A stretch of 64,000 nucleotides of DNA from Cyathus striatus. Its lineage: Eukaryota > Basidiomycota > Agaricomycetes > Agaricales > Nidulariaceae. The stretch lies in the NCBI GenBank assembly GCA_025738555.1, contig JAOVFP010000016.1, forward strand, positions 434,001 through 498,000, read 5' to 3'. Shown one piece after another: positions 1 to 54,571 of this stretch. Position 1 is the first letter of the stretch. Each line of letters starts with the position of its first letter. Both the position numbers and the translations under genes were made by a program. A model generated the notes under the pieces. That model worked only from the letters and a program-made list of their open reading frames with translations, had not been told where the DNA came from and ran no database searches.

Positions 1-2200
1 GTTGACTGTGTTCGACAGGTACGGAGGGACCAAGTATCCAACAAGGGGACACTGACAAGCGGAGTGAATGGGTGCAAAGCAAGAAGGAAAGTACTAGGTA
101 CTACTCAAATGAAACCTCGGGTTTGACGTTGATAAATATCGTGTGGAACCAGCCCGTTATACATGGAAGGTCCAGACAAGTATACCCGTAAGTAAGCAAG
201 ACAACCATGTCATGATCAACGCCCACTGAACCGCCCACACGGGACGACACACCGCCGTTTTTTCGCCGCCGGGGATACTTGGGAAAAATATGGTTCAATC
301 TCCTTTTCATCAGGGCGGCTATGCTTTGTTCTATAAATACATTTTGATTGACACGAGGCTTGCGCTTTTTGTTCTTTGTCGCTGTGTTCTTTGGTAATGG
401 CAAAGATTTACTTGTCACAATGTCAATCTATCATTCAAGTTATAGGTTGACGTGGGCCACAATCACATAGAGCCATATCAGCGATATCAATGAAAACCAA
501 GCATTATCATAGATATGATCATGGGAGAAGAGTAAAGATACCTATCTGTATCATTCATTCATTGTGATTGAATTGATCCTGAAGCCTGCAGGCTTAGAGC
601 GGAGGTACGCTAAGAAGCTTGATGAAAGTAAAATTTACTTCTGATGTGAAGACGGAACTTCACTTGTAAATGTAAATATGTTAATTTTGTACATTCGAGG
701 GCGCAAAATCCATTCGGGCTTTCTTTTCAAGTGATGACGGTTCCCATGAACAATCTTATAGCTCGTGGAACGGACCCACAATGTCCACAACGATCATGAT
801 CAGCTGTGCGACATAAACACACTGTACCTTACTAGCCTGTCGGTGCGCCACAAACAGGCTAATTCGTCCCTGAGGCGCAGTTTACATTTTCCTCCGTCCT
901 CGATCCCATGGTCTGCGCCGAGTTATGTATGTATCTCATTCCGTACCGCTGGAGACTGAGTATGTAGAGCCCAGATATCATGTGAACACTGTAGGAGGTT
1001 TGAATCTTGATCGAGAGTACGAGACTGAGTGGCAGGCACATGAATACATTTAGACCACACACAAATCATCAACTACTCCCAGCACCACTAACAACGTTCT
1101 ACATTTTCTGATAATGGTGGGTAGCAGTGGGTAGCTCGCACATACACGTATGGGAATTATCCATATTTTTGTGCCCACATCACGGTCATTCGTTCGCCCT
1201 GAGGTAATTATATCTAAATTTCTCGTCATCACTGTCATGTCAGGTTCATAGCGCACAACTGACAGTGGACAACAAGAGCGGGGGTGGTGGTGTTATCTAT
1301 CACTCGAAGATATCGGTCATATGCTCTTCCAATCTTACGGTTTACTTTACAAGAGTAGTCTATTATACTGGATAACTTTCGAGAATTGTATTCACTTAGT
1401 CGTACGGCACAATCCTTTTCGTGTGTCCCTATAACCTAGCAAACACCACTCTTTCTCTTAATCTTGTATCTTTAACAGTAGATCAAATGATATATTGACA
1501 ACCAGATAGTGATATGTATTATCTCCTGCTCGATGACATCGGTCATCTGTCCTGTTGTTTCTAGAAGTAGGTCACTTGAGCAAGTCTAATTCTGCGGACC
1601 TTCAAGAAAGCGGAGTACCGTAGATATGACTTATTCTGCTTCTTTAATTTATTTTTACACTCACTGTATCACCCACTGTCTAGTTTGAATGGATAACAAA
1701 CCTTCTGACTTCAACCTGGGGTGAAGAATAGTAGCCGACATCAGAAGGCATTGGTTATCCATGCTCGTAAGCCTAATAGGGATCTTTTTCCTATTGCAAC
1801 GCAAACTCATTGTAGCATAGATTCTTCTACTCGGAAAATGCGATTATTTATGCCAAGTCGTTCATTATTTGGATAATGATCTGCAATCCATGGATAAGCT
1901 GATAGTATCTCCCCGCTGGAATAATGTTATTGATAGTGATCTACTATGAAGGATATGGTTAACGCGTTTACGAGATTATGCTGCAGATAGAGGGGATAGA
2001 ATGACTTGTTAACATGATGTGTACTAGTGCCATCTTCAGTAGTACCTGGACACCATCTACTACTCGAAGACGTCAAGGACGATGAAACACCACGACTACA
2101 ATCCAAGGTTTCACAACGATCTACCATCGCAGACACTGGTATTAGTTACATGTCGGCCTTGTAGAAGGGTAAGTTTCATATTGTGCCTAGAGCAGGCAAA
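1..2200. other. intergenic, no gene recognised
   Basis: No protein family is recognisable on either strand. A basic 105-codon open frame on the minus strand (101-418) begins with Lys/Arg-rich sequence but has no homology I know and no supporting gene structure, so I do not call it. The rest is AT-rich and broken by stops in all frames. Confidence 0.5.
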
Positions 2201-2201
2201 A

Positions 2202-2207
2202 TATAAG
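2202..2207 (+). promoter_or_regulatory. TATA box of peptide gene A
   Basis: The sequence TATAAG lies 84 nt before the start codon of peptide gene A. The same arrangement recurs in front of the other array members. Confidence 0.5.
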
Positions 2208-2285
2208 AGAAGCTCCAAGCACTGTATTATCTCCAAGTCAAATCAAAGTTATCCTCGCACTCTCACTAAAATTATCCACCTTACA

Positions 2286-2514
2286 ATGAACTTTTCTACA
2301 CTGTTCACTGGCATCTGTCTACAAGCACTAATAATGGGACAAACTGCTGTAGCGTTGCCATCTCTAAAACAGGTGTGTAATTCAAAATATTTCACGGGAT
2401 TAGCATGCTAATGGTCTTTTGGCTTCTACGGAGAGAGATGTAGCCACAAGTAACTCAGTTCGCGAAACTCACGCCAAATTTGGACCTGATACCGGCTTCC
2501 ATTGGAATGACTGA
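2286..2514 (+). CDS. small secreted peptide precursor A (GPDTGFHW core)
   Basis: A 55-residue product is predicted from exon 1 (2286-2372) and exon 2 (2434-2514). The phase-0 intron (GTGTGT...GAG) contains a GCTAAT branch-like site. Residues 1-23 form a signal peptide (MNFSTLFTGICLQALIMG then QTAVA), followed by LPSLKQ. Exon 2 ends ETHAKFGPDTGFHWND, the most divergent version of the array motif: Gly replaces the first Asp and His replaces Arg in FRW. The Lys two residues before GPD could be a single-basic processing site, but there is no dibasic pair. The acceptor GAG is not preceded by a strong pyrimidine tract, so the first exon 2 residues are less certain than the core. No known function. 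Membership of the family rests on exon structure, phase, signal peptide and the P-D-x-G-F-x-W spacing. Confidence 0.6.
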
Positions 2515-2917
2515 ATAGTTGGATCATATTTCTTTGCCTAAGGAGAATGATGTGGACTTGACGAGATTACATACGATTATTTACATTAGTTCTTGTAGAG
2601 ATGATAATGGTTATACAGCATATGTTCTACTTCAACTCCACACAGCGCCACATATCTCAAGTGATTGTAGTAGGTACTCATCCAAAAATTACTAGAAGAT
2701 ATGTGAACATCAAATATGCATATATAGAGTTACATTCGGCGCTTCATACCAAGTGGCTCTACATATAAAGATCAACGTGTTAATCATCTTCACTATAATG
2801 CGCAATAGCCACGAAGCCAGCTACAATCTTCGCCGCCCATTCACTTGTTTGGGTTTGCATTAAATTCACCTGCTTCCCCTATTGATGACTGTATTAGTCG
2901 TCAATTTGTTCCTGGGT

Positions 2918-3281
2918 GACAGCAGGTCTCACCTCAGACAAGGCGGAATCGGGGTTAGATGAATATGGTTGTTGGTTAACAACTATAATATTCATTAAAA
3001 TGTGCTATAGAAACCAATTTCTGTTCCTATTTTAAATTTGCACTAAACCCATGTGTTCTTAACCAATTGGATAATTTTTGGTGAATTAGTGTAGCGTTCC
3101 ATATTATGAATCAGGTACAACAACCTGAACTACGGACATATTCGCAGTTGTTTTTAGAATTCGACAATAAATATGATCCTGCTACAAAAATTTTCACACA
3201 TTCTACATACTAAACAGATCTGTTGGTACCATATTAACTTGCCCCGATTCGGTCCTGTCTGAGGTGTCTCCAGGGTTGACT
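2918..3281. repeat. short inverted-repeat element (MITE-like)
   Basis: The segment near 2925-2965 (CACCTCAGACAAGGCGGAAT followed by CGGGG) recurs inverted near 3235-3277, with about 75-80 percent match over 35-40 bp. The interior is AT-rich and non-coding. The outer boundaries and target duplication are not clear, so coordinates are approximate. Its location between peptide genes A and B suggests a transposon insertion into the array. Confidence 0.45.
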
Positions 3282-4030
3282 CTCGAATGCTAGACCCAGA
3301 TACATGTTTTGGCTGGCTGTCGAACCCCTATGAGGGCTAAATCATGTTTGGGAACATATGTTATTTGCCTCCAAAAATGCAAGAATGTAACATTATTACT
3401 ATATATTAGAGCTCAGGGGATATCATGATTGGTTAACGTGCACGTAGAGATAAGGCGGACGCACTTGAAGTACTAGGTATATCCGAAGCTATAGTAAATA
3501 AGTATCAGTAAATCTCTTCAGCTTCTGTCAGAACCTTTAACCAGCAACTATAGGCCGTGGCTAGTACCTGGGCCTGTTCGACACTTGCCTGGTTCGGCTA
3601 TAGTATCTATTTGTGTGTTTATCAGCGCTGAAAATGTCGATTAAGTTAATTGACAATTTATTCCTAGGATGCTAATCGAAGTTATTTTTATAACGCATGC
3701 AAATGTTTGTACCGCTCACTAAAAGTACATGTTTCGTTCGTAACAATGGCAATTAGGCAGATGGTCATATCTGACAGATGGTAAATATAGCGATCTGTCG
3801 TCGTGATTCTAACAATATGCCCAGAATATGCCTATCTCTTCTTTTGGCCTAGTAAGTGATTAGAAACTTGTCGTGGTTGCACACTAGTGAACCTTAGGAC
3901 ATATAATTAGTACGCTGTGACTATGCTTTCACCGACTTTTTGACAGATACTCGAAGACATCAGCGATAGGTACGTACACAGCAGCATTGTGTTTTTGGGA
4001 TAGCAATACTACATACTCTTAATCACTTGC
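3282..4030. other. intergenic, nothing recognised
   Basis: AT-rich spacer between two inverted-repeat elements. I see no signal-peptide exon, no core motif and no recognisable protein. Confidence 0.5.
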
Positions 4031-4032
4031 TA

Positions 4033-4927
4033 TGGAGCGGTTCACCTAAACACCGCTACTTTTGTACAAGATAAATTACTCACTCATATTTTAACCTACT
4101 CTTTATTTGTCTTACAGAAGTGTTTGTATTAGGGATATGAATAAAACTGTAAGACAGATTTTTCTGAAAGTCAAAACTACGCGAGATATTTTTCTTTGTT
4201 CGAAAGATTTTGGCCACCTTATGTAATGAATGCCTAATTAGGGAATTATATTATGTAATATATCAAATGCACGGGCCATTCCAACGCCAATCTCCAAGCT
4301 TTTCACCAATTCCTCTCCCTCAAGCTCACCGAACTCATTATCACAATTTATTTCAGAGCTTGAAATTTCTGTGCTATCCTTCCTTTAAGTTGATTTGTAT
4401 ATACTTGTAGGACTCAAATATACAAAGCTCGACCCAGCTTGGTTCTCCAAAGTAATTATATCATTACCTTCACTGTTTACAGAGAGAAGTTGGAACAATT
4501 TGAATAAAGTAGTGATGGTCCTCTTTCTGATTCTTAGAATGATTTATATTGTATTTGAATTTGTGAGCTCTTTGCCATGCCGAATGTGCCACTTGGTATG
4601 TTAATGGAATTGGTTCTGGTTGCTGTTGCCACTAGTTGCTTCCAGTGTTGGAAGCTTATGCCATGTTGTGGTAGCTTTATCAGCTTTCACTGGCTGCATG
4701 TATATGATAGTTTCTCAAGCTGTTCTTCTTATATTGACCCATGGTATGTGTACATATATAGGAATTAAGAGGAACAGCAAAAACCTCTTCGCCTGTACTA
4801 TATATGTAGTAATACTTACATGTTACAAGCATAGCGCCAGCTTGGCTTTCAGGCGCTTAAAATAAATTCGTTCAGACAGTAAATTGGCCGCTATACAAAA
4901 GTAGCGGTGTTTAGGTGAACCGCTCCA
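4033..4927. mobile_element. Tc1/mariner-type non-autonomous element with perfect 34 bp inverted repeats
   Basis: Positions 4033-4066 and 4894-4927 are perfect reverse complements (34 of 34; left arm begins TGGAGCGGTTCACCTAAACA). Each end is flanked by TA (4031-4032 and 4928-4929), the target duplication typical of Tc1/mariner/pogo transposons. The 827 bp interior has only short open frames without a DDE domain, so the copy is non-autonomous. Identical arms indicate a young insertion. It lies directly upstream of peptide gene B, whose TATA box is 67 bp beyond the element's right end. Confidence 0.85.
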
Positions 4928-4993
4928 TAGGATCTTCTTTCCCGTACCTTACGAGATACCGCCATTGGCGTCACATGCTCCGTGCCATAGCAT

Positions 4994-5000
4994 TATATAA
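4994..5000 (+). promoter_or_regulatory. TATA box of peptide gene B
   Basis: TATATAA lies 69 nt upstream of the start codon of gene B and 67 bp outside the mariner-like element, so the insertion has left a very short upstream region. Confidence 0.55.
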
Positions 5001-5062
5001 ATGAAGGATTAGGATAGAGCCGTGACAGTCACCCACTCAAGTATTCAAGCGTCACAACCACC

Positions 5063-5276
5063 ATGAAGCTACTTCCTGTCTTCATGACACTTCAAACATT
5101 TCTTGTCGCTGTAATTGCAGTAGCTTTACCAAACACTTCAGAGGTCTGTTATATCTCGACGAATTGAGGTAAATTATCTAATATATTTACCACGACAATA
5201 GTTAATAAAACAGGATTTCGAACGTCGACACATTGACCCAGATATCGGATTTAGATGGGAAGATGAGCCACTCTAA
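5063..5276 (+). CDS. small secreted peptide precursor B (RR-HIDPDIGFRW core)
   Basis: The clearest member, with 47 residues. Exon 1 (5063-5143) encodes MKLLPVFMTLQTFLVAVIAV then ALPNTSE: a Lys-positive n-region, a hydrophobic core and a cut near VALP. A phase-0 intron (GTCTGT...AACAG, 5144-5213) separates it from exon 2 (5214-5276), which encodes DFERRHIDPDIGFRWEDEPL. The Arg-Arg pair is a canonical Kex2 site. Cleavage there would release a 15-residue peptide beginning His-Ile-Asp-Pro. The start codon has CCACC immediately before it, a good Kozak context. There is no cysteine after the signal peptide and no CaaX end, so it is neither a disulfide-rich effector nor a basidiomycete a-factor-type pheromone. 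Function unknown; a RiPP precursor is my inference. Confidence 0.8.
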
Positions 5277-5445
5277 AAGTTGTGGGGAACATACCTTCAA
5301 TAATCTCCAGAATGGCTTCAGATTCTAGTGTTTTAAATAATTGGTTTTTAGGGTGGCGCCGACTGCGTAAAAATAGGCATTTAATATACAGTTAAAATGG
5401 TCTGTATGAAATCTTTACGACATTTCAGAGCTGGAATTTAAGTAC

Positions 5446-5454
5446 TATAAAAAG
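5446..5454 (+). promoter_or_regulatory. TATA box of divergent small gene C
   Basis: TATAAAAAG lies 96 nt upstream of the ATG at 5542, giving this locus the same promoter layout as its neighbours. Confidence 0.4.
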
Positions 5455-5541
5455 ACATACTCTACAAGCACCAAACTACCAAACTACCGGTGTAATAAAT
5501 TTTATCTTCAGAATATCACTATTCATCGACTGACAATTACC

Positions 5542-5754
5542 ATGCCAGGATTGCATACTCTCGTAGCATTACAATTTACAATTGTGACGACTGTTGTAGA
5601 TAGCTGCGGTATGACAATCGTGGTCTCCAAAATCATAAAAATATGCTGAAGATGACTATACCGAATTAAGGTAAATGTTCAGAGAATATTTTTAGGCTCC
5701 GTGTTCTCTGTACATGCGCCTGGAACCGAGGCATGTGAATCGATCACTACATAG
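5542..5754 (+). CDS. divergent small secreted peptide gene C, two cysteines
   Basis: A 41-residue product is possible from exon 1 (5542-5608) and exon 2 (5696-5754) joined by a GTATGA...TTTTAG intron in phase 1. Exon 1 gives a short hydrophobic N-terminus (MPGLHTLVALQFTIVTTVVD) ending Ser-Cys. Exon 2 gives GSVFSVHAPGTEACESITT. It lacks the DPDxGFRW motif, its intron phase differs from the family (phase 1 against phase 0), and it sits between members B and D with a TATA box in the usual place. It may be an unrelated gene, a heavily diverged member, or a chance open structure. Confidence 0.3.
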
Positions 5755-5993
5755 AGCTCGGGCATAATGCACACAATTATCTATAATTACCCCTAACCGG
5801 AACAGTAGCTAAACAAACTGATTGATAGGAACACATACAAATCCAGGTATCATAGCATTCTAATTTTACGTTCAGTCATCGCCAAGGCGCAATCTACAGA
5901 AGTCCGTACTCACATGTTAGGCTCCACCACGATATCTCCACGAAACATTGTTTGCTTTGCATACTTCACGGCTTATCAATTTGTATAAAAGAG

Positions 5994-6001
5994 AGAAATT
6001 T
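5994..6001 (+). promoter_or_regulatory. TATA box of peptide gene D
   Basis: TATAAAAG lies 61 nt upstream of the ATG of gene D. Confidence 0.55.
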
Positions 6002-6054
6002 TACTTCCTTGGCTGTCGACCAAATTTATCCTCTCGGACTCTTGCATTGTAGCG

Positions 6055-6257
6055 ATGAAACTTTCTATTATTTTAACCACATTCCAAGCAATCATCATTG
6101 CTCACTTTTCAGTGGCATTTCCTACTCTTCCTCAGGTGGGTCATTCATATTATGTCCACGACCGACATATAATGTATTGGCGGGGCTCTAGTCACTTGAG
6201 CTCCGTCCTCGCCTATTAGATCCGGATATTGGATTTAGATGGGAAACCGAAAATTAA
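6055..6257 (+). CDS. small secreted peptide precursor D (PR-LLDPDIGFRW core)
   Basis: A 48-residue product. Exon 1 (6055-6135) encodes the signal peptide MKLSIILTTFQAIIIAHFSV followed by AFPTLPQ. The intron is phase 0 (GTGGGT...CTCTAG, 6136-6191). Exon 2 (6192-6257) encodes SLELRPRLLDPDIGFRWETE plus a final Asn. Pro-Arg precedes Leu-Leu-Asp-Pro exactly where B has Arg-Arg, so a Kex-like cut after Arg would free a 13-residue peptide starting LLDPD. The eight residues DPDIGFRW-E are the same as in B apart from the tail, while the signal peptides and the segment before the core differ. That pattern fits selection on the core. Confidence 0.78.
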
Positions 6258-6958
6258 TTGGATTCTCAAGAATACACAATGTTACAGTTTTGATTTGGAT
6301 GGTAGAGATGTAATGTAGAGTCGCAAAACAGAACGAACAACAAATCACCATGATACCACTCATTTATATACTAAACTCCAGTATGATACACGTTCTATGG
6401 CATAGATACTCTATCAGCGGTTAAATATTTTCGATATTGCTATATCAATAGAATTAAAGTATTAGCTCCCCCTTTCCATCTTTCTTAAATTACAATGCTT
6501 CGTTGGTGCTTTGTAAATAAATAAGCTCTTTAAATTTCAATGGAGATTGAAGTTCAAGCCGATAATTATATGTCAAAGCCAACAGGATACATCATCACCT
6601 CATAGTAGTGTAGCGTATTTCTTTTAAAAAATAATCGGCATTAAACCATCGGAGATGGCCGGAGAGACCGGTTAACGAGCAACCGAATAGCGACCGGATC
6701 ATGTGTGTCTGTAGATAGAGATACTTAATAAGCACTAACGTTTCAGACAACGGGTCATACTCCTTGCAAGGATAGATGTGTGATATACTTAGCACTCTGT
6801 GCTATAGTAATTAATGTAATACTGTAATATCGCCCATTTCAACAGCGCGCGGATAGTAATCCCAGCTACACCCTTTTAAATATCAAGTGCACAGGTTGCA
6901 GTCAATGCTTAGCTATTGCCACTAGCTTGCTGGGTCTACAGACCTCTCAAGATTTACA

Positions 6959-6966
6959 TATATAAT
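6959..6966 (+). promoter_or_regulatory. TATA box of peptide gene E
   Basis: TATATAAT lies 123 nt upstream of the ATG of gene E, the longest spacing in the array. Confidence 0.4.
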
Positions 6967-7081
6967 GACTCTGTAGAGGTCGTGTCGAATGGACTTGACA
7001 TAACAACCTATTTTCATACTGCAACGAACCGACGTTACATTGCTAAACACATCATAGTCACAACACTCTCTAGTTCAAGTG

Positions 7082-7347
7082 ATGACGCTGCTATCTGTCT
7101 TAATCACGCTTCAAGCACTTCTTCTCCTTCACGATATTCAATCTGTATGCGCATTGCCAACGTATATTATTCAGGTGCGATTACTTCAAGAATTTGAGGT
7201 CAACGGCTTACATAGCTCGCTGGCCGGTAGCGTGGCGGAGTTATACTCCCTCGAAGCACTATTGTTAATCCAATCGGAGTCGTGTCCCCAATTCCTACCA
7301 CTGTAGTCGAAACAGACTGGATTTTCCGGTGGGGTCCAGGAGGATGA
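7082..7347 (+). CDS. small secreted peptide precursor E (diverged core ETDWIFRW)
   Basis: A 69-residue product. Exon 1 (7082-7174) begins MTLLSVLITLQALLLLHDIQ, with SVCALPTYIIQ at the end. The intron is phase 0 (GTGCGA...CGGTAG). Exon 2 (7231-7347) encodes RGGVILPRSTIVNPIGVVSP, then a Thr/Val-rich stretch and VETDWIFRWGPGG. It is the tandem duplicate of F: the block GGVI-P-STIVNPI is shared. E has lost the basic pair and the D-P-D of the core while keeping F-R-W, so either the product has changed or the gene is drifting. It and F carry a longer propeptide (about 20 residues) between intron and core than the other members. Confidence 0.65.
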
Positions 7348-7885
7348 AGAACAACAACGAACCTTCTTCAAGTAGTATTATTATGGCGGTGATGCGCATG
7401 ACGTATGTAATCGCGATGGAAGGGACTTTTCGCAGTAGTAGATATTACGCTGCTTGTGGTATCTACAATAATGATGCTATTGGCGAAAGAATCAGTCTGA
7501 GGAAGTCCATTCACTGACCCGACCGATGGTTACACCACAAAACTTGCATACTTCATTATGTCGTAAGTACTAATAGCCTGGTGCAGTGTATTTTTAAATA
7601 TCGGCACCACACTAAACTATCGGAGATAAATAAACGAGCATAGGCAACGGCGTATCTTGTGAGTCTTTAGAGCCTAGTCTGCAGCGTTTCAGACAACGGG
7701 TCGCATCCTTACATGGATACTAGACTACGATATATTTAGTACATTGGTGACTGCGCATATACTGTAGTGTCTCCTAATGCAACAGCGGAAAGTGATCCTG
7801 AAACCCGTTCAAAACTTGGTCGCAAGCTCTAAATCGCTTACGAATTCTCGTTTACTACCAGAGTCAAAAAATGTCTCGAGCTGCA

Positions 7886-7893
7886 TATATAAG
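7886..7893 (+). promoter_or_regulatory. TATA box of peptide gene F
   Basis: TATATAAG lies 110 nt upstream of the ATG of gene F. Confidence 0.5.
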
Positions 7894-7995
7894 GACTAGG
7901 CAGGGAATGGAAAGTCACCACTACCTATTCTCATACTGCACCGAACCGACATTTTATTTTTAATTATATTATTGAAACACGCCATAATTCAAACG

Positions 7996-8258
7996 ATGAA
8001 GCTACTTACCGCCTTAACCACGCTTCAAACACTTCTTCTCACTCTCGATGCACAATCTGTATGTGCATCACCCACAGGTTCTAGTATTACTAAGGTGCGA
8101 TCGCTTTGAAGAGTTTAAGATCAGCGACTTACGTATAATTGGGTGGCTAATAGAATGGTGGAGTTATAATCCCTCCAAGCACTATTGTTAATCCAATTGT
8201 CGTTCCTACTGGCACTAAAAAAATTGATCCAGACCGAACTTTTAGATGGAAAGTTTGA
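7996..8258 (+). CDS. small secreted peptide precursor F (KK-IDPDRTFRW core)
   Basis: A 67-residue product. Exon 1 (7996-8094) encodes MKLLTALTTLQTLLLTLDAQ and SVCASPTGSSITK. The intron is phase 0 (GTGCGA...AATAG, 8095-8153). Exon 2 (8154-8258) encodes NGGVIIPPSTIVNPIVVPTG followed by TKKIDPDRTFRWKV. Lys-Lys lies immediately before Ile-Asp-Pro-Asp, the same relative place as Arg-Arg in B, so an 11-residue mature peptide is expected. Gly of the consensus is replaced by Thr. The signal peptide is close in sequence to that of B (MKLL, LTTLQT), which supports common origin of all members and not only of the E/F pair. Confidence 0.78.
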
Positions 8259-9090
8259 AGAGCAATGAACTGTCTGTATATTAGTATAGCATTAATACGT
8301 ATGAGGTATATATTAGTGATAGAAATAAGATATCCGTAACAAGTGTTATAAATAGCGTGTTGTGCTCCTAACGTTGCTGCGCCGCGGCCGTGATGCTTTT
8401 GATAATAATTTGTTATGGGTAACATCTAAGTATCAATCTGCGTTAATGTTTCATGAAATATTTGTGTAGAGTCTCCTTTGTATGTATACGTTTTTGTAAA
8501 GGTGAAATTCCGGAATATTAACAGAGCTGGAACTGCACAAGGAACTGTTGAGGATCTGTCGGAACGAGGGAGAGCTGAAGCGCTCAAGAAGCGCTGAAAC
8601 TTCGCTAAGAGCCATCACGTGAAAGTGAACATTCTAATTTTAAAACTGAGTTTAGAAGTTCGGACATACCCGTTTCCGACTTCCCCCGGCGACAGCGCAG
8701 CCATTGTTTCTCCTTCGACTCCGATCATCCTTCGTTCTCCTTCCCTCCATTACTTCTATCTCCCTCCCTCCATTACTTCTTTCTCCTTCCTCTCCTTCCC
8801 TGGTTATCGTTGTCCTGAACTACCTGATCCCTGATCCCTCAACATAAACCTTGACGTCCGGTTTCGATCACAGCAGCCACTAATGCGGCCTATCTCAGTC
8901 CATTACACCTACGCACAACTTGTCGATGGCATCTTAAAACGTAGTTGGATGAAGGTTTGAATATCAGCATAGTGTCTAAGGACGCCGGGAAAGACAGTGC
9001 GGAGGTGTGAGAAGGCATAATGTTAGCACCCTCACTTACAGAATATACTGTGCGGTACTTGGAGATTTCTTCCCTTGAGAGTTGCTTCCT
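8259..9090. other. intergenic, pyrimidine-rich patch only
   Basis: No gene recognised. Around 8730-8800 there is a short imperfect repeat of CCCTCCATTACTTCT within a C/T-rich stretch. Confidence 0.5.
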
Positions 9091-9462
9091 TTAGTCTTCA
9101 ACACAGCTGTCGTTCTTACCACAGTCTATTACTTCCTTATTAGTAGACAATCCATTATTATCTTTACCTAAAAAGATTATCAACTTGGAAATATTGACGT
9201 TGACTGATACACATTTATCAACCTCAGCTTCACAACCATCGGTCAAGATGTTGTCAACATGATAGATCACAATGACGGATGTATTTACCAGCACCACCTG
9301 AAGATAAGCCATACTGGTGATGCAGTGAAGTCTCTGCTTCAAGCAGACGAAATGAAGATCGACAGTAGTGGAAAGTTGATTCCAATGGCTGTATTCAGTT
9401 TTCTTGGCGACTGTTAGCAAGATTGAATGTAACCAACAAAACGATAATCTTGAAATTCTCAC
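9091..9462 (-). pseudogene. possible relic of a copia-type reverse transcriptase
   Basis: A 123-codon frame on the minus strand contains VIVIYHVDNILTDGCEAEVD near its middle. This resembles the Ty1/copia reverse transcriptase block in which Tyr-Val-Asp-Asp is followed by a hydrophobic pair, Gly and an acidic helix. Here a His interrupts the motif and the second Asp is Asn, so it would be inactive. No LTRs or flanking pol domains were found, and the assignment is tentative. Confidence 0.3.
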
Positions 9463-9691
9463 AACTAAATAAGGTTCACTGGCATGTCTATCATAGCAAA
9501 TTGATCAACCACATTTTAGACATGCGTTATGATCCCTTTCCAAGGACATGAGAAGATGCCTGGTTCTGCGTCGGCTCATACTCATCTTGAAATCAGCGCT
9601 CACCGCGCGCTCTTAATTCTTGGTGTCATTCGTTGTTATACGCTTATCAAAGTCTATTTTACACAGCATTGTACCTCAATGAGTTCATATA

Positions 9692-9697
9692 TATAAG
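9692..9697 (+). promoter_or_regulatory. TATA box of peptide gene G
   Basis: TATAAG, inside a longer TATATATAAG run, lies 67 nt upstream of the ATG of gene G. Confidence 0.55.
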
Positions 9698-9758
9698 AAT
9701 GTTAGTTTGTAAGGAAGTACGAGTAACTGTTCGTCTGACCACAATCACACATCCAGCG

Positions 9759-9980
9759 ATGAGGCTGATTTCTATCTTTACCACTCTATTATGCATCCTA
9801 CAAGTTTCAAGGGCTTTACCTGCCCTTCCCTCTAAGGTTGGACGTGTTTTACTTCAAACCGAATAATACCAGTACTAATATCGATTTTTGAATTAGGAGC
9901 CTGCATCCACACACGATAAGATGCCACGTTATCTCAACCCAGATGTGGTTTTTAGATGGAGATTCGACGACGAAGACTAA
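9759..9980 (+). CDS. small secreted peptide precursor G (PR-YLNPDVVFRW core)
   Basis: A 53-residue product. Exon 1 (9759-9836) encodes the signal peptide MRLISIFTTLLCILQVSRAL then PALPSK. The intron is phase 0 (GTTGGA...AATTAG, 9837-9896). Exon 2 (9897-9980) encodes EPASTHDKMPRYLNPDVVFR then WRFDDED. Pro-Arg precedes Tyr-Leu-Asn-Pro-Asp, the same site as in D. Asn replaces the first Asp and Val the Gly. The tail is longer and acidic. This is the only mature core in the array with a tyrosine, which is relevant if the adjacent UstYa enzyme makes Tyr- or Trp-based crosslinks. Confidence 0.75.
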
Positions 9981-10547
9981 AGCGTACCGGCACTCAGAGT
10001 CGCATGATACATAAAGCTAATAGATTATGGGGAGTGATTGTCGTGATCCCTGTCATGGACTTTAATATACGAGGAATTAGTAATTATATACCCCAAGGCT
10101 GCTTGATAGAAGGGCTCGGCTGGCGTCAAATAGAACTTCATTAGAGCCACTGTTACAGTAACATACTTCTATGAGATTCTGTTCAGAAGCTTCACAAATT
10201 ATTGGCATACGTTACAGCCTATTAATCACCCGATTGTAACTTATATTTTCTATGAATCTCTGTGCGAATAGCAGTCGTAATTCACCTGTACCCATACATG
10301 CATAGTTCAGCTATAAAGCCGTTTAATTATCCTTCAACAGCTGATCCTTTTCTTTACGGCTTATGGACACTCGAGATCCGAAATGTTCAGCGTGCAGCAA
10401 AGCAGAGAGCGCGTTCTAAATATGTTCGAGACTGTATTATAAGTAATCAAATGCGGCAACACGCTGTTCGCTAATCGGTTATCGGGTTTGCATGGGCTTC
10501 TCCAACTTCTATTTACGTATCACCCACTTACTGCAGTCGATTGTACT

Positions 10548-10555
10548 TATATAAG
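10548..10555 (+). promoter_or_regulatory. TATA box of peptide gene H
   Basis: TATATAAG lies 86 nt upstream of the ATG of gene H. Confidence 0.55.
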
Positions 10556-10633
10556 TAGTAAGACCATGAATGTGGAGCTCAAGCTTACTCCACAATAAGT
10601 GGCTGCGTCCTACTTATATGATATTCAGCCACG

Positions 10634-10838
10634 ATGCTTTTCAGTATCCCAATCATACTTCACGCACTTTTCGTTTTGCATGTTGTGGTGGCTTTACCTT
10701 TACCAGCTCCTAAGGTCTGATTCTTTCACTTAATACTTCTGGCATCTTCTAATCCTATTTATTTAGGGAGATCTAGTGTCGTTCCAAGCTCGCATACTTG
10801 ACCCCGACGAAGGATTTCGATGGGGAAGTCAAAATTAA
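10634..10838 (+). CDS. small secreted peptide precursor H (AR-ILDPDEGFRW core)
   Basis: A 50-residue product. Exon 1 (10634-10714) encodes MLFSIPIILHALFVLHVVVA and LPLPAPK. The intron is phase 0 (GTCTGA...TTTAG, 10715-10766) with a TCTAAT branch-like site. Exon 2 (10767-10838) encodes GDLVSFQARILDPDEGFRWG then SQN. A single Arg precedes Ile-Leu-Asp-Pro-Asp. The expected mature peptide has 14 residues and begins Ile-Leu. The n-region lacks the Lys/Arg seen in most members, but the hydrophobic core and the Ala-Leu-Pro boundary are typical. Confidence 0.77.
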
Positions 10839-12060
10839 TGCATTAGGCATGATCAGTCTAGATTTCGACATCAATCATACGTAGTACCGATTACACATGG
10901 GGGAATAATAGTAGGAAGAACCGGTCTCGGTTACAGTTTCACAATATAAGCCGTTATCTCGCAATGATATAAGACCATCAATCATTGTCGAACCAAATTA
11001 TTTCCAAAGGTCAGTCGGTCACAAGTGAATCAACAAGATCTCATACAATCTTTGCCATGTTGCTGTCAGGTAACCACAGCGTTTTTCTACTTTGAAGAGA
11101 AAGAGCTAGTGTGGAGTTATTTGAGTATATATGGAATTAAAACCGGAGGAAACGTAAGAGCCGTATCCCTGAAGATACATACTGAGAAAGTAACCAACGT
11201 CACTGGGGTGAATGGTACGGCGACTCGTTGACTCGGAGCTGTATTAAAGTCGGTTGGTGATAGTAGCTATCCATGCAAGTAGTCAGCACTTCACCAGTGG
11301 TGCTAACACGCACTCTTGGGATCGGCCTAGTAATCTTGGACTTTATTATTATGGATTTTAGTTTTTCGACGTTTGTCAAAAATATTGCGCCATGACCATT
11401 ATGATTTGATTATGATGCAATCCTTGCTTGCTGACATTATAAAAGTTGTTTTTCAATTTTACCAGTGTATTACTCCTTGAACATTATCTCACTTTATCAG
11501 AATAACAGACAGTGGCCACTGCTACAAAACTCATTCCCTTGCCACTGAAGCAAGTCTTTGATTCCATTTCTTTTTATGTTAGCTAATCATCTCAGATAAC
11601 CGCGTTTCAGCGAGGGTGGGCGTGAAGGCCTCGACCGGGCCTCCCAAGCAAGGCAAAATGCAGAGCGCCAATTCATCTGTTAGATTTAGATAAGCAAATG
11701 AATTCAAAGTAGCCAGGGTAGATTTGTTGGAAATGGCAGATGCCAAGACTCGACCGTATGAAGAAAATTCCCATATGGACCAATATCAGCTTTTCACATA
11801 AGTCTTGGAAATTCCTAACTTATATTCGACCTGCAAAGCGCATATAAGATCGGCGTTAAAAGCTGAAGATGGATTGAGCACATGGATGATGAGAGCCAGG
11901 CTCATTAGTACTACCCGGACCCACGGAATAGTTTACATGTATTATCACTGAGACTGTTTGAGAAATGGGCGGTATACTATATGCATTGATATGTGTCATA
12001 AGAATTCACACAATTGCTTTACATATCACCCCGCATTAATCCCTTGATACGTGTGAATGA
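10839..12060. other. intergenic, possible eroded peptide-gene relic
   Basis: No intact gene. A TATAAAAG at about 11436, followed near 11540-11560 by codons for IPLPLKQ and a GTCTTT donor-like site, recalls the end of exon 1 of the peptide family. There is no start codon, signal peptide or core motif. Confidence 0.3.
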
Positions 12061-12068
12061 TTGCAGGC

Positions 12069-13221
12069 AGGACCCCCGAAATCTCCTATAAAGGCCCTAT
12101 CCCATTTCGGACAAATTTGCGGCCTGATCCAAAACGGACATTTTGGGGCCAAAATTGACAAAATGGTTGAGTTGCTTTGAGGACATTTTTGTGCCAAATG
12201 GTGAAGGTCAGATCTGATATGAGGACAAATATGCCTTCGTGGACTAGCAGTTATGAGCATGGTAGAATTTGAAGTAAAAGCAAATTTAAGTATTGTGTTA
12301 CATCTTTGTTGCCGGGTTCGAATCCCACTGTGATGGATACATTTATTGGATGGATATAACACGTGTTTCTGAGGTAATCGACGATGAGTAGGCTGACACA
12401 GCCGACATCTGCTGACGTCGTGCTTTCAGTGATAATGCGGTCATGTTTGGCAAAGGTGAGTCTTAATATTGTGATATTGTTTTCATTCTTTTTGTTTAAT
12501 GCTCTTCTAGTTATTGTGATCTACTCTAGAACTGGTGGAACTAACGGGCGGCATGCAGATCAAATTGAGACAACAAATATTGCTGCAAACTCATACATAG
12601 GCGTTCAAATTTTCTAGTACCTGCAGGAATCCCTCTTTACTTCCCATACCGATAACATGACTCGCTTCTACACTCAACAATATGGCTTTCTTTCTTCTCT
12701 TGCCTTTTTAACACATCTCACAGGTGTCCCAACAGTTCTGAATGCCGGGGAAATGATAAAACTCGAGTCAACTGCGGACATATCCACTCAACATTGGCCT
12801 TGCACGAGACAATGAAGCTATCACGAAACAAAAGCTTCGGGTTATAATAGGTGAAGATAATGTCTAAGTAGTACATATATATATATATATATATCCTTGC
12901 TACATGCCTTCAACATTGCCAATACTCATTCTATATTGATATTTTCATTGCTTTAAGCCCCCCTTCTTGTTTACTTGCCTAAAAGTGTTGCGGCGCGACA
13001 GCGTCGCAGCTAGAACGAAATTTGACCGAAATTTAATGCCAGATCCAATTTTCGGACATTTTTGAGGGTCTGGAGAGGCCTGAGGCGAATTTCGGACAAA
13101 TTTCCGGAAATTTTGGAGGCCTGATCCACTTCGGACAAATTTGGCCTCAGCTGGCCAAAATCCATGGGGACAAATCACCCTGTTCTGGGATCGGGCCTTC
13201 ATAGGAGATTTCGGGGGTCCT
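12069..13221. mobile_element. hAT-type non-autonomous element with 8 bp target duplication
   Basis: Inverted ends (12069-12104 and 13186-13221, about 34 of 36 matching, beginning AGGACCCCCGAAATCTCC) are flanked by an exact 8 bp duplication TTGCAGGC (12061-12068 and 13222-13229). Eight-base duplications are characteristic of hAT transposons. The interior has no transposase. It contains Gly/Pro-rich subterminal repeats of TTTCGGACAAATTT, an (AT)n microsatellite (about 12875-12894) and a tRNA-like B box. It separates peptide gene H from pseudogene I. Confidence 0.8.
12241..12330 (+). other. tRNA-like segment, possible SINE head
   Basis: GGTTCGAATCCCAC at 12315-12328 is a perfect RNA polymerase III B box. 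TAGCAGTTATGAG at about 12245 loosely matches an A box some 70 nt upstream. No cloverleaf with paired acceptor stem could be drawn, so it is not a functional tRNA. It may be a tRNA-derived SINE or a captured tRNA fragment within the hAT element. Confidence 0.35.
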
Positions 13222-13410
13222 TTGCAGGCCCATATGCTCGCATCAGGAAGAGTCTTAAGAATATTCGCGGGTACGGTCTAGAGACCGTCTAGTAACTAGT
13301 TTTCCACAAATTTTACATGTGCTTCCCAATCATAAAAGGCAATCTGGATCACACATTGACAATAATGCTGTGCAGCGTACTACCGGTTGATGAGATATCA
13401 ATCCTGTTTG

Positions 13411-13419
13411 TATAGAAAG
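13411..13419 (+). promoter_or_regulatory. TATA-like box of pseudogene I
   Basis: TATAGAAAG lies 57 nt upstream of the ATG of the broken copy, one base different from the TATA boxes of the intact copies. Confidence 0.35.
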
Positions 13420-13467
13420 GGTCCTTACGGCCGAAAATATCTACATAGATCCGTCGCATCAGCCACC

Positions 13468-13674
13468 ATGAGATATCTCCTACATACGTAGTTATTTTAG
13501 TTTTCCCTGTCCTTGCGACAATTCATGCCGTCGGTGCTCAGCCTTTCCCGGTACCTTCCTATGGCACTTAAATCCAAGGCTGTTCCAGGCATACATTTAC
13601 TTACCTGAAATTTCTAATTATAGGACATGACCACAGAGCGACGTATAATTGATCCGAATGTAGGGTTTAGATGA
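13468..13674 (+). pseudogene. broken peptide precursor I (ERR-IIDPNVGFR, Trp codon lost)
   Basis: The start MRYLLHT is followed by a stop, but the next frame continues at once with VVILVFPVLATIHAVGAQPF, an obvious signal-peptide remainder, so there is a frameshift near 13488. A donor (GTACCT at 13551) and acceptor (TTATAG ending at 13623) give a phase-0 intron. Exon 2 (13624-13674) reads DMTTERRIIDPNVGFR and then TGA, where all other members have TGG (Trp). Two independent lesions make this a pseudogene. The Arg-Arg and Ile-Asp-Pro-Asn spacing confirms the family and the processing-site position. Confidence 0.7.
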
Positions 13675-13753
13675 AATCCTTAATATATTGAAGGCGAGTT
13701 GCGTTTCTACTCATCGTGTACATCTATGAATTTAATAGGAAATATTTTAATTA

Positions 13754-14685
13754 TTAGACTTTAATAGTTAGTTGACGAATAGGATTTCCTTCCACCCAAA
13801 CCTTTTCATCATATGCATCCACTACTCGCTCTTCTGCCCACTGTTTAATCTTATCAAAATTTCGGCATGAATGAGCGACATCAAGAGCAGCGATTGACTG
13901 ATTCGCTCTACTATCCCATTGCCATACCATAGTGCTTATATCGGGATTGCACATAATTGCTTGCCTTATTATATCCACGCAGTGCTCTATATGTTCAAAC
14001 ATTGTCTGGTTTTTCAGACTCATGTGGGGGTAATAGTCAGGGTATAAAGTTTGCCGAATTGAATTCTAGTTAAGTGTGAGCATATTATCTTAAAATCGAT
14101 GAAAACTACGTACAATGCAGTGAAGGTGATGGAATACCGTCAAACTTGCGATATAATGACCTGGTTCCCCAGGAATAACGGAAGTCTTGTTAGGCAAACG
14201 ATCTGCTTCACTTTTTGAAAGGGTTGAAATTCCGACTAATCATTTGTTTAGATCAGTACGGCAAGAATACGAAATTTAGATCTTACCGCCATATAGATCA
14301 TGCCATCGCGTATCCATCTCAGGGGACGGTGGCCCTTGAAAGGGGGTGCGACTGGATACTAAGCTTTGACTGAAAGTCTTGACCTCATATTCAATTACGT
14401 ATCCGGCCGGTGCTATAGTAGAATCAAATTTAGCTGATTTTGAACTTATGAAAAGTGGGATTACTTACAATATATCGTTGGATATACACCATCTGTTTTT
14501 GTAAAGCGGAAAAATGTAACAGCGACGATTACAAGGAATTCTAGTATTGCGATTGCCTTCCACGAGAAAATTGATGATTTAGGCGTCGGAGGGGAGTGCA
14601 ATGAATCGGGATTGTAATATTCCGGAGAGTCATCTTCATCACCGGAGAGTTTAAAGTAGCTGGGCAAGTTTTTTTGGGAGCTCAT
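13754..14685 (-). CDS. UstYa/DUF3328-family peptide oxidase
   Basis: Intact 258-residue protein from four exons: 14469-14685, 14287-14412, 14114-14235 and 13754-14065, with introns in phases 1, 1 and 0. Residues about 42-62 (IFSWKAIAILEFLVIVAVTF) form a single transmembrane anchor after a short cytosolic N-terminus. The lumenal domain has YEVKTFSQ, the family hallmark PFQGPPSPEMD, the first HxxHC motif (VFHHLHC) and the second (FEHIEHC followed by VDIIRQAIMC), and ends with the typical HSCRNFDKIKQWAEERV. Both HxxHC motifs are the copper-linked catalytic signature of fungal oxidases that form ether or C-C crosslinks in ribosomal peptides (ustiloxin, phomopsin, asperipin). I chose the ATG at 14685 because the in-frame upstream ATG (14775) adds a non-conserved stretch. 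The gene points toward the peptide array, 80 bp from pseudogene I. The role with these peptides is inferred from position. Confidence 0.92.
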
Positions 14686-15264
14686 GCTTTGAGTAGAAGA
14701 AGCGAAGAAGCGATACAGATTCGATGCATATACATATATATACTTTCTCAGAGTATGCGCATTGATGAAAGGCATAATTATTACGCCACGGATGCTGTGG
14801 GTTGGTATTCATCCAGATCAGAATTACTCGGACTTTTCCGTATTGAAACCTTATAATTATACGCTTCGGTGGGTTCATGCATCATGCAAACAGGCCAACC
14901 TAGCCACACCGAAGTATGTTGTGCTTCGATTGTTCCTATCTGACCTGGTGCGATCCAGTGCTATAATCTATAAGAGATCACACAGGAGGTTTCCAATAAG
15001 ATTCAACTATTCCGAGTCACGTATGGCATGGGAGTATGCCAATTATAACTGAGTGGCTTTCAGGCCGCCCAAGAAGCAATCGGCATGTGCTTTGCTAACC
15101 CGAAGTAGAAGCTTCCAAAGATAACGTTCGTTCACATGGGCGCTTCTGATACCTATCATACCGACTACTTCTAACAAACTTCTAACATCAGGAAGACATC
15201 CATCATGAACAATTGATGGATAAATAGCTAGTAGTAAACTTACTACGAATATGGCATTATTCCC
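14686..15264. promoter_or_regulatory. divergent intergenic region between UstYa and GNAT genes
   Basis: About 580 bp separate two genes transcribed away from each other, so promoters for both must lie here. A TA-rich run (ATATACATATATATAC) is present at about 14727-14742 on the UstYa side. No specific operator was recognised. Confidence 0.4.
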
Positions 15265-15903
15265 ATGTTTACCACCGAGCGCCTCGTTCTTCGTGCATAC
15301 AAAAAAACAGACGTTGATAACGTTCTTGATCTCTTTAATAACCCTGAAGTAACCGCTTATCTCAATCACGACGAATTTAACGTACCTCGAGGACCCAAAT
15401 TTGCAGAAAACATAATGAAAATGACAGAATCGTGCCTTATGTTTTGTGTTGTGGAAGAGAAGCAAGGGCGTTCGTTCGCGGGATTGGCGCTTATCAATCA
15501 TCTTCAGAGCGCTAAAAATCGGGAAGCCTCCCTCGGAATCGCATTACTTCCTCAGTTCTGGGGGAAGGGGTACGGTACAGAGGCTATGAAGTTTTTTATC
15601 GATTATGCCTTCCGAACTCTTGGGATGCACCGCGTATCTTTGGATGTGAATAATGCCAACTGGCGAGCAGTGGAGCTATACAAAAAACTGTATGGATAAT
15701 GGACTTATATGCATTATACATTATTAATATACATCTTCAGGGGTTTCATTACAGAAGGGGTGAAACGACAGAGTACTTGGACAGACGGAACGTGGACAGA
15801 CCTTACGTTTATGGGGTTGATTGACACCGAGTGGCACGCTAAAAGGACACAGCCTGTAAATCCCATGTCTCCTACCGCCATTAAAACACTTCATACATTA
15901 TGA
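15265..15903 (+). CDS. GNAT-family N-acetyltransferase (RimJ/RimL-like)
   Basis: A 195-residue protein from two exons (15265-15689 and 15741-15903). The intron is GTATGG...TTCAG. The start MFTTERLVLRAYKKTDVDNV is typical of the RimJ/RimL branch. The acetyl-CoA pyrophosphate-binding motif appears as LLPQFWGKGYGTEAMKFFID (Q/R-x-x-G-x-G/A form: WGKGYGTEA). The fold's final strand-helix pair follows as LGMHRVSLDVNNANWRAVEL with a YKKLGF end. Exon 2 adds ITEGVKR and the W-x-D-x-x-F/M segment ending in GL. The substrate cannot be told. It could N-acetylate a processed peptide or be a general cytosolic acetyltransferase unrelated to the cluster. Confidence 0.85.
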
Positions 15904-16187: not shown

Positions 16188-17499
16188 CTACTTTAGTAGA
16201 TTGTACAATCCCAATGCCCATTGCTTATGGGAGGTCCAAGAAGGATGTAGCATATCCTTCCACATAACTTTCGTGGCGTGAGGTTAAATCCATGAATTAA
16301 TGAAGCAATTACTCACAGGCATCGATGGGGCCGTTGCAAACCGGATCGACAGTAGGATCAATCTCACACCCCATCCTCAACATGTACGTCATGCAAAACT
16401 TATCACCGGTGTTAAATCCGTATGAAGATGGCTTGTTGATCATGTTCGTGAATAGCTTGTCTAAACCCGAAGCCATTAATACCAGACCATAGCTAAAACG
16501 AAGTCGACATACGAGTATCAAAAACCACGATGGATGTGTCTGGCTTAGACTTCTGGAATTCAGCCGCTTTCTTTGCCAGAACTGCATTATATTGAATTGC
16601 ATTTTGCTAGAAGTATGCGATTTACGATGGGTATATGTGGAATATAAAATCTGAAAACTCACCGCGAGCTTTCCAAGACCACCAGCACCGAATGGTGTCT
16701 TTGCCAAGGGAATAACGTTACTTAGAACAAATCGACGACCTCCAGCAGCATAGAGCTGTCCGACAATCTGGAAATATGAATCAAGAACCTGGTTATATAA
16801 ACTCGTCTTATCCGATGCATCCAAGGATGAGTTCAAGACATCGTTAGCTATATACAAACATAAGCTAATTTGCAGGTTGAATGAGGGCGATATGTAAATG
16901 CTTACTTCCAACAGCGATTTCAAACACTGTGTCGTTTCCACTCCACGAAGCCTGGCTCTGGAATTTCAGAAATGCGGCCGCCTGTCCCTTAAAATCGAGC
17001 GAAGGCGAAATTGGGGGGATAATTGAGTCGTTAGTTGTCGATCCGCCGACGGCGATCTGTGTGAACATCAGTAAAATGAAGAAGTTATACGTCGATTTCC
17101 GTACGTTGAACAAAGTAGCATTCCCAATCAAGGTGGCAAGTTGTCTAGGCCACATTGGGCCACCCGTAGAACATTGCAATGGATAAGGTTCCAAGGGATT
17201 TCCAGTACCATTCCAGGCCTCAGAAGCTAGTAAAATTAGTATAACACCCTGACATAGATAGAATGACGTGCGTACTAAAGCTGAAAACCACAGATGGAAA
17301 AAATGATTAAAGTAGTAACCACGATGACATTCATATATCACTAACCTATCCCCACTATATACTCGTTAGTCGCAAACGCTAAGAGGATATGAAATTGTAC
17401 GAACAAGGAAACGACAAATCGTGGTGTTGGGAATTTCTGGGACGCAGAAGCCCCCAAGGTAAGAACTGCACACAACAGTGTAGTTGAAATGAGATGCAT
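16188..17499 (-). CDS. secreted SGNH/GDSL hydrolase, many exons, possible junction lesion
   Basis: Signal peptide MHLISTTLLCAVLTLGASAS starts at 17499. Conserved blocks follow in order: GDSFT (block I, Ser), AWNGTGNPLEPYP, STGGPMWPRQLA, IAVGGSTTND, a GTND block III (Asn), the LSNVIPLAKTPFGAGG region, VVFDTHKLFTNM, a Cys-rich loop and the C-terminal DMLHPSWTSH, which carries the DxxH catalytic pair. The Gly-Asp-Ser motif is spread over two micro-exons, 17346-17354 (9 nt) and 17276-17280 (5 nt), that splice in phase with the long exon starting at 17226. The join of exon 1 (ends 17401) to the first micro-exon is out of phase by one base, so either a noncanonical site is used or a 1-nt insertion has damaged the gene. 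The family includes carbohydrate esterases and lipases. Stop codon at 16188-16190. Confidence 0.75.
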
Positions 17500-53437: not shown

Positions 53438-53865
53438 ACTACTATATGATTAGATACAACTTGTAAGCAACTTGTAAGTGATACATATAGGACTGTAAAC
53501 AGGTCCAACTCACTTTGTTCCTCACAGTACGGCGTTCACTATGAAAACTTTGGCACTTATGCGGGGGATAAGTATGCGAGTTTTACAATCCTCCCTTGAC
53601 CCTCTCATCCTATTCCAAACCAGTAAAATGCCGATGAACAGAAGCTGCTAAATCACCCCTGCTGCGGTTTTGGCTATACAGAGTCGGCGTGTCGGCTCGT
53701 GTCGCGTACTACCTAATGTCATTAGCACCCAGTCATTTGAACACTTGGCAACCATGAACAGATTATGCGTATGTCACGCATCACATAAGCGGTTGAACAC
53801 AGGGTGCAACTGTTCAAGGCCGTCACGCTCAAAAGGCACGAACACTTGGTCGTATTGATACAGTA

Positions 53866-54571
53866 ATGTAAGGATTTTCAGATGTGGTTCGTGCACTATC
53901 CCGGAACTAGCACGTGATCGCATTAAATTTACTCTCGGACCGTGGTCCGTCACAGACTGTCACACCGACTCAGTCACTCCAACCAACGAAGTTTGAACGT
54001 CCAAAGTTCTACTTATCATTCTCCCTCGAGTCCCCTCAACCTACATATACAGGTCCTACAAAGGCTCAGCGCTCAGCGCTCAATGGCTCTGAATGTCCTA
54101 ATCCGTGCCATTTATCGCATAACTCCGCTCGTCGACGTCCTCATGCCACCCCCTACCACTCGCTCTACACTTCCAGCAGTATATATCACCAACGCACGTC
54201 GATTCCCAACCGACTCACATCGAACGCCCATCTCGTCACATTCCGTACACTCCCTCCCACTCCTTTCCAGAACACTTTCCGTTACTCCTATCGAACCACA
54301 ACACGAATAACCACCTCCACCTAAGTATATGCATACATAGCAGCGGTCCGCAAAATCCGAACAGGCACCTTTCTCATTCCACACCAAACCGGAGAAACAT
54401 CGGCCCGCAAGACAAAATAACACATTTCCTCGTGTCGTCGTGACCAGCTCATCCCCTACGGCCCGGCATCCATCGAAGGTCATATAACGTCCTCATTTGC
54501 TTCTTATCCCATCTCTTCCCTGCTTTCTCTTCTCTACTTTCTCTACCTGCGGACACCCAAAAAGCAGCACG
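53866..54571. other. promoter region of DUF2264 gene
   Basis: C-rich, gene-free DNA between the pogo-like element and the DUF2264 start. Overlapping minus-strand and plus-strand frames are shadows of low-complexity sequence. Confidence 0.4.

Follow-up and report, generated by a model that had tools for sequence, protein, structure and literature searches.

A 64,000-nucleotide window of the genome of the bird's-nest mushroom Cyathus striatus (Agaricales, Nidulariaceae; C16:434001-498000; the genome, 107.45 Mb in 24 contigs, was searched in full) carries an array of seven small two-exon genes (A-G), all on the + strand and encoding putative secreted peptide precursors, next to a gene of the UstYa family (DUF3328; Table 1). 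The seven genes share one build, i.e., a signal-peptide-like first exon with a hydrophobic N-terminus that closes shortly after A-[L/F/S]-P, a phase-0 intron (52-70 bases, donor position 5 a G), and a second exon, 63-117 bases long, with a single C-terminal core. Near the protein end, this core takes the form DPD-x2-F-[R/H]-W, with the variants ETD (gene D), NPD (F), and GPD (A). The observation is real, and it recurs at another UstYa locus in this genome; the two arrays point to what may be a family of modified peptides not previously described from mushrooms.

The models of genes B, C, E, F, and G are convincing. That of gene A depends on a poor acceptor (CGGAG), and genes A and C also permit intron phases other than the phase 0 chosen here. 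A preliminary description, made from the letters alone, had listed seven apparently intact genes and one broken copy: this is confirmed, with A uncertain in its splice and D degenerate in its core. Eight copies were indeed found, although that count had overlooked a core remnant, whose 260 upstream bases showed no signal-peptide exon. The consensus proposed at the time, D-P-[D/N]-x-G-F-R-W, was slightly too tight (G is present in 4/7 cores, A reads FHW, and F reads NPD), while the claim of one core per gene agrees with 18/18 family genes examined (here and below, counts out of 18 omit C14:1320071, which came to light once the gene set had been settled). Splice donors in the window depart further from GTRAGT than those of the family's other genes. 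Between genes A and B lies a perfect 37-base inverted repeat (window 4030-4066 and 4894-4930, arms 827 bases apart), which perhaps marks the two ends of a mobile element.

The UstYa gene of the window comprises four exons with GT-AG borders throughout, and matches Pfam PF11807 at 175.3 bits for a cut-off of 25. Its spliced product has a single N-terminal hydrophobic stretch and carries HHLHC and HIEHC, i.e., the HxxHC(x)nHxxHC motif, so that the intact UstYa/DUF3328 gene with both motifs, as first described, was recovered. The product is a predicted copper enzyme, of a type known for modifying fungal toxins. The gene model is supported by a C. striatus database protein, P0001, of equal length (258 amino acids) and 96% identity.

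A second array and scattered members

Overall, the family comprises 19 apparently intact genes: seven in the window, eight at a UstYa locus on C14, and four scattered. Among the loci fetched, the C14 UstYa gene (C14:1296902-1297518) had the best tblastn score to that of the window (43% over the best stretch), and both HxxHC motifs are present. Joining signal-peptide exons to second exons yielded six two-exon genes at this locus, with two further array genes at 1313477 and 1320071 (splice of the latter read by eye); gene 1298650 can also be read straight through without an intron. The cores of this array have four residues between PD and the aromatic residue, compared to two in the window. Genome-wide patterns identified the scattered members (C14:1105854, C14:1181529, C3:1113647, and C21:1139157), in all four of which a signal-peptide-like exon is followed by an intron that can be modeled in phase 0. 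A signal-like hydrophobic N-terminus with an A-x-P end, judged by hydropathy and not by SignalP, recurs in all 18 models.

A protein search with the seven window precursors returned nothing at E 10 or below (95 candidates); a search with the 18-member alignment matched three C. striatus database proteins to the family among 764 candidates. P0004 and P0006 reproduce the splice models and retain the cores: compared to this genome, P0004 shows six changes in the segment that links intron and core, while DPDSAQGFRW and the first exon are unchanged, and P0006 keeps EVDSVNAFIW with S rather than R as its final residue.

We evaluated the specificity of the core through pattern searches. A relaxed core pattern matched 8 times in window 1-15000 (the remnant, the broken copy, and every gene except D) and 6 times in 20 kb at C14, versus 0 times in 229 kb of comparison DNA, i.e., window 15001-64000 and 18 further 10-kb stretches, of which 17 contain or adjoin other UstYa matches and the remaining one is the upstream flank of the window. 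Strict genome-wide patterns gave 13, 11, and 15 matches against 6, 0, and 2 for the respective reversed-pattern controls. When a signal-like exon, a donor with G at position 5, and an intron of 44-94 bases were required, 9/9 family genes tested passed, and 16/17 off-target loci yielded no two-exon model, the remaining one being a hydrophobin-like open reading frame (ORF). Specifically, the 15-match pattern consisted of four window genes and 11 others (10 without a two-exon model, one hydrophobin-like), and none of the six off-target matches checked for the 13- and 11-match patterns gave such a model. Three loci were left outside this test: C1:2575011 and C14:370418 (core interrupted by a stop), and C8:3846984, whose match is letter for letter that of C8:3821402. 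A core-independent search, based on signal peptide, phase-0 intron, and C-terminal Trp, returned 6 matches in window 1-15000, all from the family, and 8 on C14, 6 of them from the family; over 209 kb elsewhere, it returned 15 matches, none convincing. Finally, TATAWA occurs 30-150 bases upstream of the start codon in 16/18 genes, compared to 12.8% of 5000 random window positions. Taken together, the pattern counts relative to controls, the comparison DNA, the TATAWA enrichment, and the two-exon test rule out a chance motif.

Within the core, position 3 (D) and the last position (W) are unchanged in 18/18 genes, the aromatic residue is F in 17/18 and Y in 1/18, and R is present in 14/18, while the codons for the core D, P, F, and R differ among the 18 genes. 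The ratio of non-synonymous to synonymous substitution rates (dN/dS) over the five measurable pairs was 0.50, 0.34, 0.98, 0.45, and 0.29, and genes B and C have identical cores at saturated synonymous sites (proportion of synonymous differences, pS, 0.79). Judging from these comparisons, the family is mostly under purifying selection. Structure prediction from three sequences gave a mean predicted local distance difference test score (pLDDT) of 34, which was useless and not used, and a search of solved structures returned only a meaningless match (E 0.88).

UstYa association and possible peptide modification

The genome contains 32 exon-level UstYa matches, grouped into about 16 loci, from which we estimate that <1% of the genome is no more than 25 kb away from a UstYa gene. 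Among the family genes retrieved with the 13- and 11-match patterns, 9/13 sit within ~16 kb of a UstYa match, and the UstYa genes of both arrays have the double HxxHC intact. Co-occurrence with UstYa elsewhere had been set as a test beforehand: in this genome, the outcome is favorable, since the only other array found, on C14, also has a UstYa gene. Four UstYa matches lie within ~4.4 kb of each other in C3:2560001-2570000, where no precursor was recognized, and a UstYa copy in C19:1501001-1511000 (5453-5785, +) has a stop in the second HxxHC motif and is apparently broken.

Precursors of other kinds adjoin two further UstYa genes. On C8 (C8:1482001-1492000), a multi-exon precursor gene starts at 1486583, ~0.8 kb from the UstYa gene (1487363-1488005) and on the opposite (minus) strand; its splice sites were read by hand. 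A signal-peptide-like exon is followed by six units such as EVSVEPAYANGPKSYWVRKE and DFDIEVRIDNGPDTYWARRE, whose cores, NGP-[D/N/K]-[T/S]-[Y/W/F]-W, come one per exon with phase-0 borders. Units 1-5 terminate in W-[A/V]-[K/R]-[K/R]-E, i.e., with a dibasic site, right before GT, and the sixth reads WARQEKV and then stops. On C4, a repeated KEX2-type precursor at about 9163-9800 (+) of C4:3050001-3060000, starting ~4 kb away from a UstYa match (3054909), has six ATHEYG[I/V]DEDE units among eight LSKR (units ATHEYGIDEDEALSKR). Together with the single-core arrays, this genome therefore has three precursor forms, in which cores are allotted singly to genes, singly to exons, or to plain repeats, and we infer that these forms may derive from each other.

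The reading we prefer, with a probability of roughly 0.55, is that the locus is a basidiomycete UstYa-type locus for ribosomally synthesized and post-translationally modified peptides (RiPPs), in which each core has its own small gene and would serve as the single-core substrate of a copper oxidase. The anatomy combines a signal-peptide exon and a phase-0 intron with a core exon, in which [D/N/E/G]-P-D is separated by two or four variable residues from [F/Y]-x-W near the C-terminus. In Cyathus, the genes probably form a dikaritin-like RiPP family of the gene-per-core type. Proteins with DUF3328 are binuclear copper enzymes, and one of them, CctR, is a membrane-bound homodimer with its binuclear copper center at the double HxxHC, which requires dioxygen and electrons and whose C-terminus is assigned to the organelle lumen (cited passages of PMC12435403). 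Given this lumenal placement, a signal peptide would bring a precursor to a UstYa-type enzyme. The precursors would enter the endoplasmic reticulum via their signal peptide, where a membrane-bound UstYa dimer with its catalytic end in the lumen would use two copper ions and dioxygen to oxidize the core, on the invariant Trp or close to it, through a crosslink, hydroxylation, or similar; this Trp, beside the aromatic residue, is the likely oxidation site. A protease would then free the peptide at mono- or dibasic sites preceding the core, a KEX1-type carboxypeptidase would trim Lys or Arg behind the Trp, and diversity would stem both from the copies of the gene and from the residues that vary between DPD and FRW. 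K or R follows the Trp in 8/18 genes, which, under the KEX1 trimming rule as applied to the residues after Trp, fits such a carboxypeptidase step, and K or R occurs within five residues ahead of the core in 12/18. From the sequences, we infer that the peptides would be oxidized or crosslinked, and hence be RiPPs.

Several observations weigh against this interpretation. Only C14 is an independent case, because the window was chosen for its UstYa gene, and genes inside one array are duplicates and not independent of each other. Four of the 19 members (on C3, C21, and two on C14) have no UstYa match nearby, the single-core gene type is absent at the 13 other UstYa loci examined (C8 and C4 counted among them, C5:589118 outside the comparison), and the UstYa tree leaves C16, C14, C1, C8, and C18 without order among each other. 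Within the precursors, exon 2 has a dibasic site ahead of the core in only 3/18 genes, one of the five measurable dN/dS pairs stands at 0.98, and the third database protein, P0005 of C. striatus, diverges after DPDSAQVF, its annotated 3' part truncating the core after F. Tyr, the residue crosslinked in known dikaritins (passages of PMC9233826), is found in only 1/18 cores. The RiPP interpretation of the preliminary description is partly supported: it gains from the anatomy, the one-core build, and the UstYa neighbor, and loses from the scattered members and from the other UstYa genes of the genome, which pair with repeated-core precursors (C8, C4) or with none found.

Alternatively, the genes may encode linear secreted peptides (signals or antimicrobials) that are processed but not oxidized, with the UstYa neighbors serving other substrates. 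This is the strongest competing explanation, though we regard it as unlikely: it would account for the scattered members without UstYa and for the lack of Tyr in most cores, and KEX2-derived agaricomycete peptides have been found linear and minimally modified (as described in passages of PMC9769878), but it does not readily explain why both arrays include a UstYa gene when so small an estimated share of the genome lies near one, nor why precursors of other kinds adjoin the UstYa genes of C8 and C4. We consider it improbable that DPD..FRW is instead a recognition or docking sequence, the functional product being the variable segment ahead of it. A conserved tail after a variable segment does correspond to a follower-plus-core pattern, and the six changes of P0004 fall in that segment with none in its DPDSAQGFRW; however, the segment is just 7-13 residues long in several genes (B, C, G) and has no common aromatic residue, and the C8 cores end at a Trp immediately ahead of a dibasic site. 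Decay of the window array into a remnant without function, as the broken copy, the core remnant, the uncertain gene A, the degenerate gene D, and the divergent donors could suggest, is highly improbable given the identical cores of B and C despite saturated synonymous sites, an intact UstYa gene 96% identical to its C. striatus counterpart, and TATAWA ahead of 6/7 window genes. Basidiomycete lipopeptide pheromones, which have a C-terminal CaaX box and no signal peptide, were rejected as a candidate: the family has no CaaX, an exon-2 Cys in 1/18 genes that is not terminal, and a signal-like N-terminus.

Beyond the preferred UstYa-type RiPP reading, we tentatively suggest, with somewhat less than even confidence, that these genes belong to a basidiomycete RiPP class of their own. 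There, UstYa copper enzymes would act on Trp cores, each encoded by a gene (C16, C14) or an exon (C8) of its own, the phase-0 core exon would be the unit of duplication, and release would proceed at least partly without dibasic KEX2 sites. Such a class would provide orphan mushroom UstYa genes with substrates that are invisible to repeat-based searches.

Comparison with known systems

The MSDIN/cycloamanide genes of Amanita have one core per short gene, many paralogues, and no signal peptide, and we know of no UstYa link for them. The Cyathus family resembles them in its short single-core genes and many paralogues, and differs in having a signal peptide; MSDIN/cycloamanide precursors are processed in the cytoplasm (passages of PMC9769878). 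The dikaritins of Ascomycota (ustiloxin, phomopsin, asperipin-2a) share with the family a secreted signal-peptide precursor and an adjacent UstYa/DUF3328 gene. In the sources as cited, however, a dikaritin precursor contains a series of repeated cores flanked by dibasic KEX2 sites, and the crosslinks are Tyr-based (PMC9769878, PMC12048977, PMC9233826), whereas the Cyathus genes have one core each, mostly without a dibasic site, and Trp for Tyr. Diversity would be spread over gene copies here, and is spread over repeats inside one precursor there. Neither a tyrosinase nor a methyltransferase turned up in the pieces tested.

KEX2-processed repeat proteins (KEPs) are similar in their signal peptide and, for some members, dibasic sites, and the C4 and C8 precursors are KEP-like. 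KEPs differ in that, by definition, KEX2 sites separate three or more tandem repeats, which leaves the Cyathus single-core genes outside the group. Since surveys demand at least 3 repeats of at least 8 residues (passages of PMC7329392), single-core genes would escape them. According to the same source, only 103/1680 basidiomycete KEPs have a UstYa gene nearby (PMC7329392), although UstYa genes are numerous in mushroom genomes: Pleurotus ostreatus is described as having 16 UstYa genes, six of them developmentally expressed (passages of PMC8893723). On the enzyme side, CctR and other DUF3328 enzymes share the double HxxHC, membrane anchor, and DUF3328 domain with the window UstYa; CctR hydroxylates a non-ribosomal cyclic peptide, whereas ribosomal precursors, as candidate substrates, adjoin the window enzyme.

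No description of the single-core family was recognized among the matches listed, from a search outside which most subscription journals and bioRxiv preprints lay. If the preferred reading is correct, the arrays provide concrete single-core precursors and a searchable anatomy (signal-peptide exon, phase-0 intron, and core exon ending near Trp), and chemistry would be predicted at Trp instead of Tyr.

Features of the window

Table 1 Positions of the array, its UstYa gene, and neighboring features in the window, with the cores of the C14 array
Feature	Position	Strand	Remarks
Gene A	2286-2514 (exons 2286-2372, 2434-2514)	+	core GPDTGFHW; splice uncertain
Core remnant	3263-3340	+	DPDTCFGW; without recognizable signal-peptide exon
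Gene B	5063-5276 (exons 5063-5143, 5214-5276)	+	core DPDIGFRW after ERR
Gene C	6055-6257 (exons 6055-6135, 6192-6257)	+	core DPDIGFRW
Gene D	7082-7347 (exons 7082-7174, 7231-7347)	+	degenerate core ETDWIFRW; paralogue of E
Gene E	7996-8258 (exons 7996-8094, 8154-8258)	+	core DPDRTFRW after KK
Gene F	9759-9980 (exons 9759-9836, 9897-9980)	+	core NPDVVFRW
Gene G	10634-10838 (exons 10634-10714, 10767-10838)	+	core DPDEGFRW
Broken precursor copy	about 13468-13674	+	stops in exon 1; TGA where the core Trp belongs
UstYa (PF11807) gene	14685-13754 (exons 14685-14469, 14412-14287, 14235-14114, 14065-13754)	-	258 amino acids
GNAT acetyltransferase ORF	15265-15699	+	candidate neighbor; PF13302, 80.4 bits
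Region in two pieces	16309-17365	-	without Pfam match
ABC transporter-matching pieces	between 18994 and 21676	-	match of 106.9 bits in one piece, marginally below cut-off in another
C14 array cores			DPDSADVFRW, DPDSPGVFRW, DPDSPDVFRW, EVDSVNAFIW, EPDSADIYGW, DPDSAKLFGW, DPDSSNIFRW, NPDSVDVFRW

Elsewhere in the window, a DDE superfamily endonuclease ORF adjoins a Ulp1-type protease ORF (50088-51185 and 52232-53449, -), and these perhaps represent mobile elements. The window also contains two ORFs for NACHT/NPHP3-type nucleoside triphosphatases (39122-40747, +, and 57755-59395, -) and a gene for a DUF2264 protein (54488-56551, +).

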